From positions 1-64,000 of the forward strand of contig CH672375.1 in assembly GCA_000153385.1 (NCBI GenBank): a DNA stretch of 64,000 nt, given 5' to 3'. The stretch comes from Flavobacteria bacterium BBFL7 (GTDB lineage: Bacteria > Bacteroidota > Bacteroidia > Flavobacteriales > Flavobacteriaceae). The notes below the pieces were generated by a model. The model saw only the letters and a list, made by a program, of their open reading frames with translations. It made no database searches and was not told the origin of the DNA. Below, piece by piece: positions 1 to 30,535 of this stretch (the stretch's first letter is position 1; each line of letters begins with the position of its first letter). Position numbers and translations under genes: made by a program.

Positions 1-176
1 TCTTTTATTAATAGGAAATATCAATTGCGAAGATGTGAAACACCTATGAATTAAGTAAATCCCAAACAATTTTTTAAAAAGTAAAAACAATTAAAATGAA
101 ACAAGCACTACCTACAACAAAGAACTGAGGTAAAAAACAACACTTTTCTTCGTTAATTTGAGACATTATTATTCTG

Positions 177-216
177 GGCTCATAGAATCGATCAGTTGAT
201 TCTGGAGCCTTTTTTA
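177..216. terminator. Hairpin plus T-run in the IS end
   Basis: An outer stem GGCTC/GAGCC (177-181 and 205-209) encloses an inner stem AGAATC/GATTCT, followed by a T-run to 216. The same hairpin occurs in the relics at 3871-3910 and 30432-30470. It may be a plus-strand terminator, or part of a structured RNA encoded by the element downstream of the transposase. Confidence 0.6.
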
Positions 217-232
217 TTTCTATTTTTACTAA

Positions 233-679
233 TTATCGAATCAAGATGGAAACGTGTGTTTCGTCATATGGCCTGCCCGATCTCGCTATGGCAAAACATT
301 GTTTCAACAGCTTGTTGGCCACTGCGATTAAGGCTAGTTTTTTACTCTTTCCTTTGTTAACAATCCGCTGGTAAAGATCTCGACATGCTTTATTATGTTT
401 ACAAGCATTAAATAAGCATAGAAACAATAAATTGCGTAGTTTTCTATTTCCTACTTTACTGATCCTCGCTCGTCCTCTAACGCTACTGCCAGACTCGCGT
501 ATGGTAGGTGTGATGCCTACATAGCTGCATAGCTGACTGGCATTGACGGTTATCGCTTTCGCGAAAGCGATAAATCCAGACTCATCATTGTTATATTGAT
601 GGTGACCTGTTTCACTACCGTGTACATCAAAGACATCTTTACTGATGCCTACTCCAAAAGTTTCTTTATATTTATTCAA
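233..679 (-). pseudogene. IS110-family transposase with a large internal deletion
   Basis: Residues 1-40 carry the start of the IS110 RuvC-like DEDD domain (GVGISKDVFDVHG). Residues from about 46 onward are the C-terminal transposase_20 part (NASQLCSYVGITPT, then RISKVGNRKLRNLL). Family members are about 310-330 aa, so roughly 190 residues, including most of the catalytic domain, are missing although the frame stays open. The protein should be inactive. The junction between the two parts coincides with the palindrome CGCTTTCGCGAAAGCG at 554-569, read here as AFAKA. The family call is firm from the conserved C-terminal block; the deletion size comes from memory of family lengths. Confidence 0.85.
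554..569. repeat. 16-bp palindrome CGCTTTCGCGAAAGCG (exact)
   Basis: Exact copy; the perfect palindrome extends to 22 bp at 551-572. It lies inside the broken transposase at the deletion junction. Confidence 0.95.
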
Positions 680-965
680 ATCATTTATTTAACGAAAGAA
701 CTAGCTACTTTACTCACAACAACTTAAAAACGAGATTTCAACGTCTCACAGAACTGAACGTGATTGCAGTAGTAAAAGAGATAGGATTATCAATGTTGTC
801 GAAGTCTGGAGCTTCACCGTGTATCATAACCTTAATTCTCTCTTTTATTCTTTTTAATTACTATCTAAATTTATTGAGATCCAAACTTAAGACGTGTATA
901 ATTAATGGCTATGGCAATTGACTATAAGACCCTTATCATATGAAACCTGACTCTAACTATTAAAA

Positions 966-1769
966 ATGAATGTTAACCGAGCAATATTGATATCTTTCCT
1001 ATTTACCACACTTTTTTCTTGTTCTTCTATTTTAAAATCTAACGAAACTAGAAGTAAACAATATGTAATACTAAAACTAGACGATCTTTGGAATGAAGAA
1101 GATTTAGTTCATAATGGTTGGATTGAAGTCATTAATTTTTTAAACCAAGAAAATATCAAAGGAACCATAGGAATAGTTGGAAATTCTCTAGAAACTGATG
1201 ATAATGAATATTTCCAATGGATTAAAACAAGGAATAATGAAGGACATGAAATTTGGAATCATGGATTTTGTCATTGTAAGCGACTGGAAGGTGAAATTGA
1301 TATACGAGAATATAGAGGAGAAGGACTCGAAGAACAATTTGAAAGCATTTTTAAAACACAAAATTTGGCCAAAGAAAAATTGAATATAACTCTTCGTTCA
1401 TTTGGAGCGCCTTATAATTCAACGGATAAAAACACGATAGTCGCTCTTGAGAAAATTCCAGAGATTAAAGTTTGGCTTTTTAAAGAAAATTCTAGTCAAA
1501 CTGAAAAATTTGTAATCAATCGAATAAATGAAATAAACATTGAATATCCAGTGCACATTCCAGATTATGAAAAGTTCAAAGAAGGTTATCTCAATCATTC
1601 CTCAGAGCCAATTATTATAATACAAGGACATCCAAGAAGTTGGATGGAAGACAAAATACGATTTGAGGAATTTAAAAAAATTGTACTTTTTTTAAAGAAT
1701 AGAAATGTACAATTCGTTACTCCATATGAATATTACCAAATAAAAGAATTGAAATATGACTCTATTTGA
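966..1769 (+). CDS. Polysaccharide deacetylase-like (NodB/CE4 or DUF2334) lipoprotein
   Basis: The product has 267 aa. The N-terminus is a signal peptide with lipobox LFSC (Cys19), so it should be a lipoprotein of the cell envelope. The body resembles polysaccharide deacetylases: paired aspartates D39-D40 in LKLDDL, a metal-type HGFCH motif at H99/H103, FGAPYN near residue 145, and IIQGHP near residue 219. Known relatives remove acyl groups from cell-wall or capsular sugars; the substrate here is unknown. The gene is AT-rich, has no recognisable promoter and is followed by an attC-like inverted repeat, so it may be the first gene of a cassette. The fold call is fairly good, activity unproven. 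Confidence 0.7.
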   Translation: MNVNRAILISFLFTTLFSCSSILKSNETRSKQYVILKLDDLWNEEDLVHNGWIEVINFLNQENIKGTIGIVGNSLETDDNEYFQWIKTRNNEGHEIWNHGFCHCKRLEGEIDIREYRGEGLEEQFESIFKTQNLAKEKLNITLRSFGAPYNSTDKNTIVALEKIPEIKVWLFKENSSQTEKFVINRINEINIEYPVHIPDYEKFKEGYLNHSSEPIIIIQGHPRSWMEDKIRFEEFKKIVLFLKNRNVQFVTPYEYYQIKELKYDSI

Positions 1770-1930
1770 GCACGAATACATCTATAGACTTATCTAATAT
1801 TAATGAACCTTAAATATCTTTGTTGAATCAACATTCTGTACATGACAATAGATATAATTGCATATCTGCTCGTACCTCACAGAAACGATTTATCATTCAC
1901 CATTCTCGCCAGCCGCTAGGAAACAAACAA

Positions 1931-2085
1931 GAACGTTGTATAATGGCGATTGAGTCGTTTTAAAGGCTTATAGCGAGGCTGTGATCATTCCAAAATTCAG
2001 TAACTTCACAACCAATAACCAACAACCAAAAGGGCAACGCGTACCGGCTAAAACGCTTCACTCGCCTTATACCTTTGCCGTTGCC
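1931..2085 (+). repeat. attC-like imperfect inverted repeat 1
   Basis: The left arm (about 1932-1966) pairs with the right arm (about 2046-2084). AAC at the left edge mirrors GTT at the right. After an unpaired spacer the arms match as TATAA(T)GGCGA...CGTTTTA with single-base bulges, and about 80 bp lie between the arms. AAC/GTT boxes, an unpaired spacer, bulged stem bases and a variable centre are the plan of integron attC sites. It follows the deacetylase gene and precedes the next gene by about 10 bp. The gap 1770-1930 holds nothing else recognised. Confidence 0.5.
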
Positions 2086-2096
2086 AATAATTTAAA

Positions 2097-2387
2097 ATGA
2101 ACAGAAATCAAATCAAGAAAGAGTTACAAGAAAACTTCCGAGAATTAAGAAAAATCTTGAATTCGTGGGAATTAATTCCTGGTTCGCCATCAGACGAGTT
2201 TGATTCTATAAATCATCAAATTTTAAGTCATTTATACAAAGGAGCGGATTTCGAAAAGGTATCTCGTGTTTTAGATAGCGAATTGACTGTGACTTATGGA
2301 TTATCGACTGATTTAAAAGATGCGGAAAAAATAACTGACGAAATTATGGAATGGTGGAATTTTAAAATCAAAGAGAACTTTAGATGA
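2097..2387 (+). CDS. Small hypothetical protein, DUF1871-like
   Basis: A 96-aa soluble acidic protein without signal or membrane segment. The pattern SWELIPGSPSDEFDSI...YGLSTD, followed by a short helix with EIMEWW, recalls the DUF1871/YugE fold, whose role is unknown; the match is from memory and weak. It starts about 10 bp after the attC-like repeat, as a cassette gene would. After its stop the +1 frame stays open to 2460 and reads as a plausible continuation (LDEVKEKQKGLEHLYKS), so a frameshift may have shortened the protein by about 30 residues. Confidence 0.6.
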   Translation: MNRNQIKKELQENFRELRKILNSWELIPGSPSDEFDSINHQILSHLYKGADFEKVSRVLDSELTVTYGLSTDLKDAEKITDEIMEWWNFKIKENFR

Positions 2388-2469
2388 AGTAAAAGAAAAA
2401 CAAAAAGGATTAGAACATCTTTACAAATCGACAGTTTTTGAAAACGGAATAATAAAATAATTTAATAAT

Positions 2470-2778
2470 ATGGAAATAAAATATTGCTGGAGATGCAAAA
2501 TGGACGTTCCAATGCTTGATAAAGAAGAACACGCAATCGCATCAAAACTTTATGCAAAAGGGTTTAAAGTTTTAAAAAAGGATAGACAAGAGCGTTTCAA
2601 GGAATTATTGGATTATTATAATGATTTGACTGGGTTTGGAGAAACTGAACCTAATGCAATTGTACATCACGCAATCGGAATGTATGGTCCTGATTGCGAA
2701 AATTGTGGTAAACCATATAGAACACCAGAAGCTAAACTATGTGCAGCTTGCGGAAATAAAAGAAAAATAACTGAATAA
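2470..2778 (+). CDS. Small zinc-ribbon protein of unknown function
   Basis: A 102-aa protein with two pairs of cysteine knuckles: CWRC at residues 6-9 near the N-terminus, and CENCG (about 76-80) with CAACG (about 92-96) at the C-terminus. These could bind one or two zinc ions. The middle is a charged helical stretch. There is no signal peptide. It lies 82 bp after the DUF1871-like gene, on the same strand, and just before the second attC-like repeat, so both genes may travel in one cassette. Function not recognised. Confidence 0.65.
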   Translation: MEIKYCWRCKMDVPMLDKEEHAIASKLYAKGFKVLKKDRQERFKELLDYYNDLTGFGETEPNAIVHHAIGMYGPDCENCGKPYRTPEAKLCAACGNKRKITE

Positions 2779-2783
2779 AAACG

Positions 2784-2920
2784 CACTACAACAATGGCTA
2801 TAAGTAATTGCTTGTTCTCGCCTACTTCTGAAAATCCTTTCGGATTTTCAGTTTGGTGTGTACTTGCAAAGTTAAGTGCTAAACCACGCAACTACTCATA
2901 GCCGAGACCGTTGTGGTTAA
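2784..2920 (+). repeat. attC-like imperfect inverted repeat 2
   Basis: The left box CTACAAC (about 2786-2792) is complementary to the right box GTTGTGG (about 2910-2916) with one mismatch. After an unpaired spacer, GGCTATAAGTAATTGC pairs with the reverse complement of the right arm, GGCTATGAGTAGTTGC. The centre holds its own 10-bp perfect hairpin (CTGAAAATCC/GGATTTTCAG, 2828-2851). This is a convincing attC-type layout, about 135 bp, placed between two plus-strand genes. Confidence 0.6.
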
Positions 2921-2951
2921 TTAAAGAACCGATATTCCATATTAAAATTTT

Positions 2952-3782
2952 ATGATAAAACTACTTTACTATCCAGCGTTATATTTTTTCATTTTATTCG
3001 TACAGTACTTTATTATTTATATTTTTTCAAAAGATGTAAAAATTTCCTTCCTTAAGGACAACCTACTCTCTATGTTATTAGCATCTATTTTTTTAGGTGG
3101 AATAATGAACATATTTTCAAAATATTTTGAGTTTTTTGATAATAAAGTTTTATTTTATATCACATTAGCAATTACAATTTATGGGTTTTGGTTTATTATA
3201 AATCCACTTCTAAATGTAATCTTTTCAAAAAAACACTTACGGGATTATAATATCGAAAATCAACTTAAAATGGAAAACCAAAATTTTAAAGTTTATTTTA
3301 CAGATAAAATGAGTTCAAATGCAATAGCTACTGGAATTATTCCATTTTACAAAATCATAATTATATCAAAAAATTTAAAGTCGAGTTTAAATGATGCGGA
3401 ATTAAAAGCTATAATCTATCACGAAATTGGACATCATAAGAAAAATCACATTTTCACAATGTACATTCTAAATGTGATTATTTTTACTACCTATCTTTAT
3501 GGGTATTCATGGTTATCTGATTATGAATTTCAATCTAAGTTTTATGAAGGTTTATCTGTGTTTTTATCAGGAGCAATGTTTGGTTTAGCTTGCTATTACA
3601 TACCGAATAAAATCCTATATTTTTTAGAGTATCAAGCAGATTCATTTTCTGCATCTATAAACGATAAAGAAAGTATGATTAAAGCACTAATAAGTTTGGA
3701 TAAACTAACTGATGGTAAGTTAACTAAAGGAAATATTAATCATCCTAATTTAGAAAAACGAATTGCTAATTTAGAAAACTGA
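2952..3782 (+). CDS. M48-family membrane zinc metalloprotease
   Basis: The product has 276 aa with two or three N-terminal membrane helices, a zinc motif HEIGH at 157-161 and a further pair near 170-210. A third metal ligand E226 lies in EYQAD, as in the Ste24/HtpX-type M48 families. Such proteases cleave membrane or envelope proteins. The gene starts about 32 bp after the attC-like repeat and ends 30 bp before an IS-end relic, fitting a cassette. It is markedly AT-rich. The BlaR-type M56 family is an alternative; the EYQAD spacing favours M48. Confidence 0.75.
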   Translation: MIKLLYYPALYFFILFVQYFIIYIFSKDVKISFLKDNLLSMLLASIFLGGIMNIFSKYFEFFDNKVLFYITLAITIYGFWFIINPLLNVIFSKKHLRDYNIENQLKMENQNFKVYFTDKMSSNAIATGIIPFYKIIIISKNLKSSLNDAELKAIIYHEIGHHKKNHIFTMYILNVIIFTTYLYGYSWLSDYEFQSKFYEGLSVFLSGAMFGLACYYIPNKILYFLEYQADSFSASINDKESMIKALISLDKLTDGKLTKGNINHPNLEKRIANLEN

Positions 3783-3812
3783 TTAACTAAAAAAAGAAAA
3801 ACTAACCACAAC

Positions 3813-3996
3813 AAAGAACTGAGATAAAAAACAACCCATTTCTTCAATAAATTTAGATACTATTTATTGAGGCTCATAGAATCGATCAGTTGATTCTGGA
3901 GCCTTTTTTATTTCTATTTTTTACTAATTATCGAATCAAGTTGAACGTTTGTATCGTTATATGGCCTATCTTATTAATACATAAAAAGGGCAAAAC
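3813..3996 (-). repeat. Relic of the IS110/IS1111-type end
   Basis: This stretch matches the non-coding end at 119-232 base for base over long runs, including the GGCTC...GAGCC hairpin (3871-3903). It continues into a decayed C-terminus of the transposase (minus-strand reading ends in NLIR, compared with SILIR in the other copy). The outer edge abuts CCACAAC at 3806-3812, which looks like the left box of an attC-like site. The rest of the element is lost and the relic runs into the end of the LysE-type gene. Confidence 0.75.
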
Positions 3997-5607: not shown

Positions 5608-5680
5608 TAAAAGAACTGAATTAAAAAACAACACATCGATTCGTTTAGTTAAGTTTTTATTATTGCTGAGCTATATCGTT
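5608..5680 (-). repeat. Short degraded relic of the IS110/IS1111-type end
   Basis: AAAGAACTGAATTAAAAAAC and the following TTCGTTTAGTTAAG...TTATTATTGCTGAGCT match the outer part of the end at 119-180. The hairpin and the rest are lost. It lies just after the LysR stop codon. Confidence 0.5.
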
Positions 5681-29760: not shown

Positions 29761-30357
29761 ATGAAAGAATTAATTATACCCTTTGCCACTGCAGTTGGTT
29801 ATATGCTGAAAGTCTTAAAATCTAACGTGAAAATTGACAAGTTTAACCCTGAATTTAAAATGATTAGACACGGAAATTATTTTGAATTTATCAATTCTGT
29901 AAAAGGAGAAATACCCCATTCAGTAGTTTATAATAAAGGGAAAATTACATCCGACAACATCGCAAGAAATGATGACTTTGATTTTTTGGGATTATTTAAT
30001 GCTAATCCATCTCTCCAAAAATTTTATATAGATTGCTACAAAGAGTACGGAAAAATAACTGATACTGATATTCCGGATTCGATATACGGAATTGCCGCAT
30101 TGTTTGAAATAAGCCTCAGAATGCACGCTAACAATCATAACCTGATTGAACCGAGAGAAAACTTAAATGAAGTGATTAATAAATTGACTAAATTCAAAAA
30201 CTTAAATAAAGACGAAACAAATAAATTACATCAAGGAAGAAGGTTTATTAATATGGTAAAACATTTTAACAATCAATTTCCAACATGGAATGAAGGAATA
30301 GATTCTATGACGATCGCTTACGAAATAGTCAAAGAAAAAAAATTGACGATTATATAA
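29761..30357 (+). CDS. Hypothetical protein, accessory
   Basis: A 198-aa protein, AT-rich and rich in Asn, Lys and Ile, without signal peptide and with no domain I recognise. The start has a short hydrophobic stretch (IIPFATAVGYMLKVL). It sits in a 1-kb islet between purL and an IS-end relic that begins about 20 bp after its stop, the same arrangement as the M48 and LysR genes near the left end of the window. Base use differs from purL, which suggests transfer. Nothing else is seen in 29573-29760. Confidence 0.6.
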   Translation: MKELIIPFATAVGYMLKVLKSNVKIDKFNPEFKMIRHGNYFEFINSVKGEIPHSVVYNKGKITSDNIARNDDFDFLGLFNANPSLQKFYIDCYKEYGKITDTDIPDSIYGIAALFEISLRMHANNHNLIEPRENLNEVINKLTKFKNLNKDETNKLHQGRRFINMVKHFNNQFPTWNEGIDSMTIAYEIVKEKKLTII

Positions 30358-30375
30358 AAACTATAGACCCTTCAC

Positions 30376-30535
30376 AAAACTGAGGTAAAACTATTACTAC
30401 CACTTCGCCAATTTGATACAATCTTACCCTAGGCTCATAGAATCAATTCATTGATTCAAGAGCCTTTTTTTTATATGCTTTTTTATGATTAATTAAAGTA
30501 AAATAGAAGCTTGTGCTTCTATATATGGATTAATT
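30376..30535 (-). repeat. Relic of the IS110/IS1111-type end
   Basis: AACTGAGGTAAAA is followed by diverged bases, the hairpin GGCTC...GAGCC with T-run (30432-30471), then a decayed transposase C-terminal region matching 217-290 at lower identity. It is clearly the same end as at 119 and 3813, but older. The preceding CACAA may be what is left of an ACAAC box. Confidence 0.6.

Follow-up and report, generated by a model that had tools for sequence, protein, structure and literature searches.

The first 64,000 nt of contig C1 (CH672375.1) of Flavobacteria bacterium BBFL7, whose whole genome comprises 3.1 Mb in 7 contigs, carry relics of an insertion sequence (IS), two of which abut short boxes ending in ACAAC; this stretch of DNA is referred to here as the window. 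We put at roughly 87% the probability that these relics descend from an IS110-group element of the Flavobacteriaceae in which a bridge RNA, encoded in the leader at the left end (LE), guides the transposase into the left arm of attC-like cassette sites. The ends of the element, its flanks, the covariation of guide and target, the fold of the leader and the clade of the transposase, as described below, are all read from sequence comparison. (G-numbers denote comparison genomes, including those of Nonlabens, and L-numbers individual loci; C2 is another contig of BBFL7.)

Ends of the element and point of insertion

The BBFL7 genome has three Transposase_20 matches, and because the only one above cut-off is the broken relic beside the box at 112, no intact copy of the IS was found in the 7-contig assembly. 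Within the genus Nonlabens, Transposase_20 is detected at E<=0.001 in 11 of 23 genomes (including BBFL7, which probably belongs to this genus). A DNA search gives matches in 23/23, part of which reflect a genus-wide palindrome inside the query and not the IS; ~30 nt of the right end (RE) are common to several IS families. The ends were defined from copies in G010 (four, near-identical), G017 (six) and G001 (eight, in the form of three nested pairs and two single copies). The LE is CTTAAG (TTAAG in G001), the RE terminates in ...CTCAGTTCTT, and one A is common to IS and target. When the empty site of the window (YAAC-AAT-GGCTATA) is compared with occupied sites (YAACA, IS, ATGGCTATA), the insertion point falls within the 3 nt that separate the R-like from the L-like box on the left. 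The reading of the ACAAC box given by the initial annotation needs that box to lie outside the IS, and it does: three nested copies in G001 show TTC at this place, which rules out ACAAC as a part of the element.

In most related copies the flanks are attC-like

An alignment-guided search of named genomes gave 456 relatives, and the best 80 loci were used. The titles of these 80 carry ~30 genus names, mostly of Flavobacteriaceae (Maribacter, Psychroflexus, Tenacibaculum, Polaribacter, Winogradskyella and others), and a few are metagenome-assembled genomes (MAGs) labelled Saprospiraceae, Cytophagaceae, Bacteroidetes or Bacteroidia. With 22 copies from Nonlabens, that of the window among them, 102 copies were compiled; 78 have both ends and enough flank, and 77 of these are unique. 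(L155 and G005_L081 are the same place and were counted once, both here and in the guide test. L209 and L180, in each of which one end is mis-called, were retained in the flank survey, where both weigh against the targeting claim.)

AAC directly precedes the RE in 68/77 unique copies. In 44/77 there is a second arm, complementary to the L-like box and followed by GTT, at a distance of 110-126 or 176-186 nt; random segments have one in 1.2%. When the flanks are searched freely for an arm matching at >=9/13, the contrast is smaller (43/78 copies versus 8% of random segments). The initial annotation had proposed that the IS inserts specifically into attC-like sites and had named the ends and flanks of intact copies as the check; such copies were found in Nonlabens and in other Flavobacteriaceae, most of their flanks are attC-like, and the proposal is borne out.

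A predicted bridge RNA in the leader

The leader upstream of the transposase gene is 196-268 nt long in 74/74 measured copies and 206-223 nt in 68/74. The non-coding part of the RE, by comparison, measures 28-37 nt in 29/71 copies and 114-159 nt in the other 42/71; because this length is bimodal and the leader is present in all, a common guide RNA would hardly reside in the RE, and a guide from the 3' non-coding region was ruled out on the strength of the 29 relatives that have no long region there. The fold set held 93 leaders, L209 and L153 being left out, and the 54 non-redundant ones (that of the window included) fold, by consensus, into two stem-loops that have internal loops; some pairs have changed on both sides and a few cells break. 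On its 5' side the first loop repeats the insertion flank of the LE side, and on its 3' side (ACAACA) it complements TGTTG. The second loop, the putative donor-binding loop, contains CAGUUCU, which by eye equals the RE end and hardly varies; no right donor guide was made out. A bridge RNA with a target loop that matches the insertion site is thus predicted to lie in the leader.

The match between left guide and target was measured on 91 copies with leader and flank; with L209 (LE mis-called) and L195 (gap) left out there are 89 pairs, 67 of them unique, and the eleventh target letter is a T appended to every copy. Over the 67 unique pairs the mean match is 8.42/11, versus 7.39 (standard deviation 0.11) when guides and targets are re-paired, and 0/10,000 shuffles are as good. 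The result is similar when the constant last T is removed (7.54/10 versus 6.51; 0/10,000) or when one value is taken per distinct guide (n=30; 8.46 versus 6.92; 0/10,000). The chosen register scores 8.4 and the other eight registers <=5.5; the informative guide positions are 2, 3, 6, 7, 9 and 10.

Individual loci present what look like natural retargeting events. At L202 the guide is CUAUAGCCGU and the target CTATAGCCGT. In G017 the guide is AUAUAGCC, and the targets are of the TATAGCC type in 6/6 copies, as the guide predicts; the unoccupied left halves of the same genome comprise 8 GGCTATA and 7 GTRTATA matches (2 and 1 with reversed-pattern controls; two of the 8 may be one stretch counted twice). 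At L225, TTAAGCAT is common to guide and target, and the right guide is AAACA where the target has TGTTT. In the nested G001 pairs, the inner copy lies in the leader of the outer copy, at the left-guide sequence itself (GCTTC, AATGTATATC). Such nesting is the outcome that would be expected of a guide that copies its own target, the guide gene being then a target of its own element.

Two further observations concern these loci. The nested pairs are located at L058 (1852/3066 and 13095/14309) and L059 (3725/2511), the same pair at three places. Five loci from Wocania, Salinimicrobium and a Bacteroidia MAG (L224, L225, L226, L227 and L229) have flanks that do not conform to the boxes seen elsewhere; three of them (L224, L225 and L229) have TTAAAC or TTAAGC in the left guide and flanks that read like it, so that these copies seem to have been retargeted to other sites.

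A number of points weigh against a guide in the leader aimed at attC-like sites. With regard to the RNA, single-sequence folds give the first stem in 5/6 cases, G010_L076 lacks the consensus, the consensus fold carries no significance test, and a long RE may be a second source of RNA in the copies that have one. With regard to the guide, position 1 matches less than in shuffled pairs, position 10 matches in only 45%, and positions 4, 5, 8 and 11 hardly vary and are uninformative; much of the match is common to all copies because most guides and targets contain TATAC. The shuffles remove this shared part; host and kinship of the IS are uncontrolled in them. With regard to the sites, 33/77 copies have no second arm at the fixed distance (decay, truncation or variation may account for some, as in G001_L060, where the arm lies at 142 nt), 5/77 have neither AAC nor arm, and L074 and L059 look like true off-target sites. 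The arm search covered the LE side only, and the 9 copies lacking AAC may include some inserted in reverse.

Copies without a hairpin partner also bear on what is recognised. Since they exist, the IS appears to read a short linear sequence. Recognition of the folded hairpin, as by the integron integrase, would account for the presence of both arms at 44 of the 77 copies and for sites that fold better on one strand; we nevertheless regard it as very improbable, in that the 68 copies with AAC at the RE all use the left arm, the guide letters match the linear flank, and copies such as G010_L074 and the nested ones of G001 sit at places that lack an R box or for which the search gave no partner arm.

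The transposase groups with IS110, not IS1111

The transposase has PF01548 and PF02371 above cut-off, the feature of the IS110 family DEDD transposases, and scores 217 bits against NCBIfam NF033542 (IS110 family RNA-guided transposase; cut-off 140), a model against which no IS1111 members were run. At E<=0.01 the only sequence matches in the PDB are IS621 (E=2.9e-30) and ISCro4 (E=2.4e-29). In a tree with named references, which had none of the ISKpn4 type, the eight rows of the target clade form one group (branch 95/96) on the IS621 side, and ISEc11, IS4321, IS5075 and IS5708 lie across a 100/100 split. ISEc11 is placed in the IS1111 group in PMC11187229; for IS4321 and IS5075 that assignment is taken from a reference title.

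The IS1111 group is defined by subterminal inverted repeats of 11-13 bp, set back 7 bp from the terminus of the LE and 3 bp from that of the RE (PMC11187229). A search for such a repeat at 7/3 in 67 elements gave a mean of 4.7/12 and a maximum of 6/12, versus 5.8 for shuffled ends. The longer non-coding region of the IS1111 style, downstream of the transposase gene, is likewise no constant feature (29 of 71 copies have an RE of 28-37 nt), and the guides are located in the leader. The initial annotation had called the ends 'IS1111-type'; this label has to be given up in view of the 100/100 split, the lack of subterminal repeats and a predicted guide in the upstream leader, which is the IS110 arrangement. 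(The motif GL-P----S(T)G was dropped as an IS1111 marker, GL being present in an IS621-family transposase as well.)

A true IS1111 element with a seekRNA from its 3' non-coding region would have the same kind of target as ISKpn4, ISPst6 and ISPa25, members of the IS1111-attC group, and PMC11187229 notes that a few ISs of each group break the rule on the position of the long region. The long 3' non-coding region of the window copy and of 42/71 measured relatives would suit such an element. However, 29 relatives with only 28-37 nt in this place use the same target, the repeat is absent, the IS1111 references lie beyond the split, and the guides that covary with the target are in the leader; we consider this origin very improbable. 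Judged from these sequence features, the IS seems to work like the IS1111-attC group without having IS1111 features.

It is just as improbable that the shared flanks arose by duplication or homologous spread of occupied sites and not by repeated targeted insertion, despite the clustering of solo RE relics (C2:614-619 kb, G003, G011, G019 and G020) and the recurrence of the nested G001 pair at three places, because the four near-identical copies of G010 follow different genes with four different flanks and box letters, the target recurs in many genera with diverged ISs, and guides match their own sites better than re-paired ones (0/10,000).

Proposed mechanism

In the mechanism that we propose, a bridge RNA would be transcribed from the leader upstream of the transposase gene and would guide the transposase, being made and used as in IS621. 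The left target guide, on the 5' side of the first loop, would match the L''-like box (TATAC.. or TATAGCC..), and the 3' side (ACAACA) would be complementary to the R-like box (TGTTG). Because the two sides of the guide would read these two boxes, the IS would be placed in the 3-nt spacer between them, with its RE bordering the R-like box and hence the 3' end of the cassette gene upstream. As target it would use the left arm of attC-like hairpins, which close the gene cassettes in integron-like arrays.

An insertion of ~1.3 kb in one arm should hinder formation of the hairpin and freeze the cassette, in that the occupied site would no longer recombine. The RE hairpin, where present, would terminate the transcript of the upstream cassette gene. 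Loss of the body of the element, leaving a solo RE, may be its natural fate; the window has three such ends, two of them with the hairpin.

The target sites are strand-polar hairpins

A scan with free spacers (2-8 nt on the left, 3-10 nt on the right) gave 43 hits in 667 kb, many of them counted on both strands, versus 4 in shuffles, and the sites that it found have a 3-nt left and a 6-nt right spacer. With the left spacer set to 3 and the right to 5-6, 142 distinct empty sites were collected, 100-230 nt long and mostly ~121 or 184 nt. (For this set and for the scans of G010 and of C2:1.8-19.4 kb and C2:121-133 kb, the two lower bars on sites were looser than for the recombinase stretches discussed below; at the bars of this set, over a wider set of loci, there are 177 distinct sites versus 6 in shuffled sequence.) In G010, 32 hits lie on the + strand and 2 on the - strand across ~54 kb.

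The sites are polar. Positions 7 and 12 of the L-like box were left free in the search; there, A in the left arm corresponds to G in the reverse complement of the right arm in 113/142 and 110/142 sites, respectively, and the opposite is seen in none. Because of these A/G positions, the bottom strand forms wobble pairs where the top strand has A.C mismatches, and it is the more stable strand in 126/142 sites, so that an imperfect hairpin with a preferred bottom strand, as in attC, is present. The R box of integron attC sites has the consensus GTTRRRY, with the inverse RYYYAAC. Only 12/142 sites fit GTTRRRY and 11/142 fit RYYYAAC, and a canonical attC is ruled out by this fit. By sequence, then, the targets appear to be attC-like but not canonical.

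In BBFL7 itself there are 20 left-half matches of the GTRTATA type, 18 of which fall in C2:1.8-19.4 kb and C2:121-133 kb, and the two-arm scan finds 2 and 6 sites in these regions, respectively; that the start of the window's contig was joined to the start of C2 is a guess. Further relics of the IS were found by nucleotide search at C2:614-619 kb and C1:317 kb. The two-arm scan with a 3-nt left spacer gave zero sites in C2:608-624 kb and C1:312-322 kb, so that these relic clusters are not shown to be arrays. At C2:608000-624000 (L020), the genes between which the RE relics lie encode, among others, a TIR-like protein (256 aa) and one resembling DUF4062 (both named by eye), and are perhaps defence genes.

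Recombinases and possible cassette movement

Of 17 stretches (7-20 kb) picked for a TIGR02249 hit, 11 contain sites, and a scan of these 17, with the window and two more loci, found 44 hits versus 1 in shuffles (shuffles, and not random genome stretches, being the control). The sites start 6-8 kb from the recombinase gene in L136, L142 and L143; they lie on the strand opposite to it in 7/11 stretches and on the same strand in four (L146-L149). Two kinds of recombinase are seen: those of L136-L145 measure 276-293 aa, and any sites found near them lie on the opposite strand; those of L146-L149 measure 360-399 aa and have an extra N-terminal part, with sites on the same strand.

TIGR02249 matches are below the 265-bit IntI cut-off in 23/23 genomes. 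In six recombinases tested, the match falls into two stretches with profile positions ~180-240 skipped, which indicates that the IntI-specific insertion is absent; for the one recombinase tried against solved structures, XerA is the closest and IntI4 (PDB 2a3v) the second, aligned in 2 stretches. The protein of L149 passes NF040815 ('site-specific tyrosine recombinase/integron integrase') with 232.5 versus 220 bits, and the other five score 188-197; since one passes a model whose name includes integron integrase, such recombinases are already suspected of integron links. The four TIGR02249 hits of BBFL7 fall in two genes, of 311 and 319 aa, which are taken for putative housekeeping Xer genes.

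Comparison of the loci for common cassettes yielded 9 pairs, of which one is a duplicate record. In the 8 informative pairs, homology starts <=3 nt from the GTT in 3 (two of which share the L191 cassette), <=12 nt from it in 1, and extends into the site in 4; none of the 8 starts downstream of the GTT. The best case is a cation-efflux-like cassette (named by eye) of Nonlabens G017 and Gelidibacter maritimus, which is 93% identical over 863 bp, starts at GTTGTGG and is unlike before it. A break at this position fits what cassette exchange predicts, in a small number of cases.

The initial annotation had held that the abutting ends support two claims at once, that the repeats are recombination sites and that the IS recognises them. 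The second part stands. The first does not follow, since what the predicted guide pairs with is a short linear piece of the left boxes, and for some copies no hairpin partner was found; insertion shows a conserved sequence, not recombination. For recombination of the repeats the evidence is thinner, consisting of tyrosine recombinase genes on the same stretches, strand-polar hairpins and a few breaks at GTT. We hold it somewhat better than an even chance that the Flavobacteriaceae have their own lineage of integron-like systems, with large cassette arrays, strand-polar sites (two fixed A/G positions, G-T wobble, not GTTRRRY), Xer-like recombinases that lack the IntI insertion, and bridge RNAs of the IS110 group that evolved to read the left arm, each guide recording the site type of its element.

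Relation to known systems

IS621 and other bridge-RNA elements of the IS110 group (PMC11208160) share with the present element a DEDD transposase, a guide RNA in the leader and the same arrangement. As in the IS621 type, there are two internal loops, the 5' side of the target loop matches the left target and its 3' side complements the right target, and, read by eye, the CAGUUCU of the second loop equals the RE end. The present element differs from IS621 in its target, the left arm of cassette sites, and in belonging to a flavobacterial clade with 29.1% identity to an IS621-family transposase. The IS1111-attC group (ISKpn4, ISPst6 and ISPa25) is RNA-guided and inserts at one end of integron attC sites (PMC11187229); it is another clade, whose subterminal repeats and 3' seekRNA are absent or unneeded here.

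Integron attC sites and IntI, as described in PMC8618304 and PMC9668308, have several features in common with these arrays: the cassettes all point one way, genes are followed by imperfect hairpin sites of ~120-190 nt whose bottom strand is the more stable, and a tyrosine recombinase lies on the same stretch. They are set apart by the poor fit to GTTRRRY, the spacers of 3 nt (left) and 6 nt (right), a polarity that stems from two fixed A/G positions, and the missing IntI-specific insertion. NF040815 (XerA-like) mentions integron integrase in its name; as a sequence model, it is silent on sites and cassettes. Repetitive extragenic palindromic (REP) sequences are not known to serve as cassette recombination sites. 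ISPa11 and the REP-targeting ISs named in PMC11187229 resemble the present element in being RNA-guided and in having a repeated, foldable chromosomal target.

Among the matches listed in a literature search, titles and beginnings of abstracts contained nothing on an IS110 element that targets attC or this family of sites; this is weak evidence of novelty, as most subscription journals and preprints are outside the coverage. With 30 distinct left guides in one clade, each with the sites it selected, the element looks like an example of bridge-RNA reprogramming in nature. Targeting of cassette sites by a guide RNA would then have arisen in the IS110 group in addition to IS1111. The IS may also help to detect a large cassette-site family of marine Bacteroidota, which searches based on IntI or GTTRRRY would probably miss.

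Features of the window

The window contains one internally deleted copy of the IS and three solo ends. The boxes that the initial annotation had placed at 112-118 (CTACAAC) and 3806-3812 (CCACAAC) are there, both on the + strand and each followed directly by AAAGAACTGAG, and the RE copies next to them are 85% identical across 129 nt; a third RE copy, at 30354-30482, has 66% identity. The box at 112-118 is the left R-like box of an attC-like site occupied by the IS relic, AAC being found at the same place in 68/77 copies.

The relic at 119-891 (- strand) is a near-complete IS110-group element with an internal deletion, with its RE at 119/120 and its LE end, CTTAAG, at 886-891; intact G010 copies, with which it was compared, are ~1,300 bp long. 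It consists, in order, of the RE, a 3' non-coding stretch, a transposase with a large internal deletion, the leader and the LE. A hairpin in the RE (177-209), followed by T6 (177-215 in all), folds with -18.4 to -18.7 kcal/mol and is terminator-like for + strand transcripts; the RE hairpins were absent from the list of a simple terminator scanner and were revealed by folding. In the broken transposase (233-679, - strand), profile matches indicate an N-terminal piece fused to a C-terminal Transposase_20 piece, with the middle gone. The leader, or 5' non-coding region (680-891, - strand), is the predicted source of the bridge RNA, given the consensus fold of the 54 leaders and a similar leader length in relatives. 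In it, the putative left target guide (816-826, - strand; RNA UGAUACACGGU) equals its own target TTATACACGTT at 9/11 positions in the guide alignment, and the putative right target guide (791-800, - strand; RNA GACAACAUUG), read by eye, is complementary to the TGTTGT of the R-like box. The target flank at the LE (892-909, + strand), ACGTGTATAATTAATGGC, is an L''-like box, and a second hairpin arm was sought on the LE side of this copy and none was found downstream.

The left 4 kb contain + strand genes with long inverted repeats between them. A polysaccharide deacetylase-like gene (966-1769, +) is followed by a probable attC-like site at 1931-2086 (+), read by eye as GAAC, GTT, GTATAATGGCGAT ... 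CTTATAC, CTTTGCC, GTTGCC, which is missing from the YAAC scans because its start is GAAC. Two further + strand genes (2097-2387 and 2470-2778) precede the empty attC-like site that the initial annotation had listed as site 2, with a left box CTACAAC; it was recovered by the two-arm scans at 2786-2916 (+) as CTACAAC, AAT, GGCTATAAGTAAT ... ACTACTCATAGCC, GAGACC, GTTGTGG. Its parts are R'' (2786-2792), the spacer AAT, L'' (2796-2808), L' (2891-2903), the spacer GAGACC and R' (2910-2916), all on the + strand. A cassette-like gene with a domain match to M48 peptidase (2952-3782, +) leads up to the second left R-like box at 3806-3812.

Matches to the IS in a nucleotide search of the window lie at 3793-3967, 5610-5672 and 30403-30528. 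Behind the second box is a solo RE relic of the same IS (3813-3967, -) with the terminator-like hairpin kept and the LE gone. The further relics that had been reported at 5608 and 30376 are present at 5610 and 30374; neither has a box, and none had been claimed. That at 5610-5672 (-) is a degenerate solo RE that has lost box and hairpin, and that at 30374-30528 (-) is an old solo RE in which the box is gone and the terminator-like hairpin kept. A relic with a similar flank is found in G005 (L073); the two, in two species, have a common upstream flank and retain the hairpin, as if it had been kept for that use. A palindrome, CGCTTTCGCGAAAGCG, is dispersed across the window and the genus, and one copy lies in the broken transposase at 557-572, close to the deletion junction.

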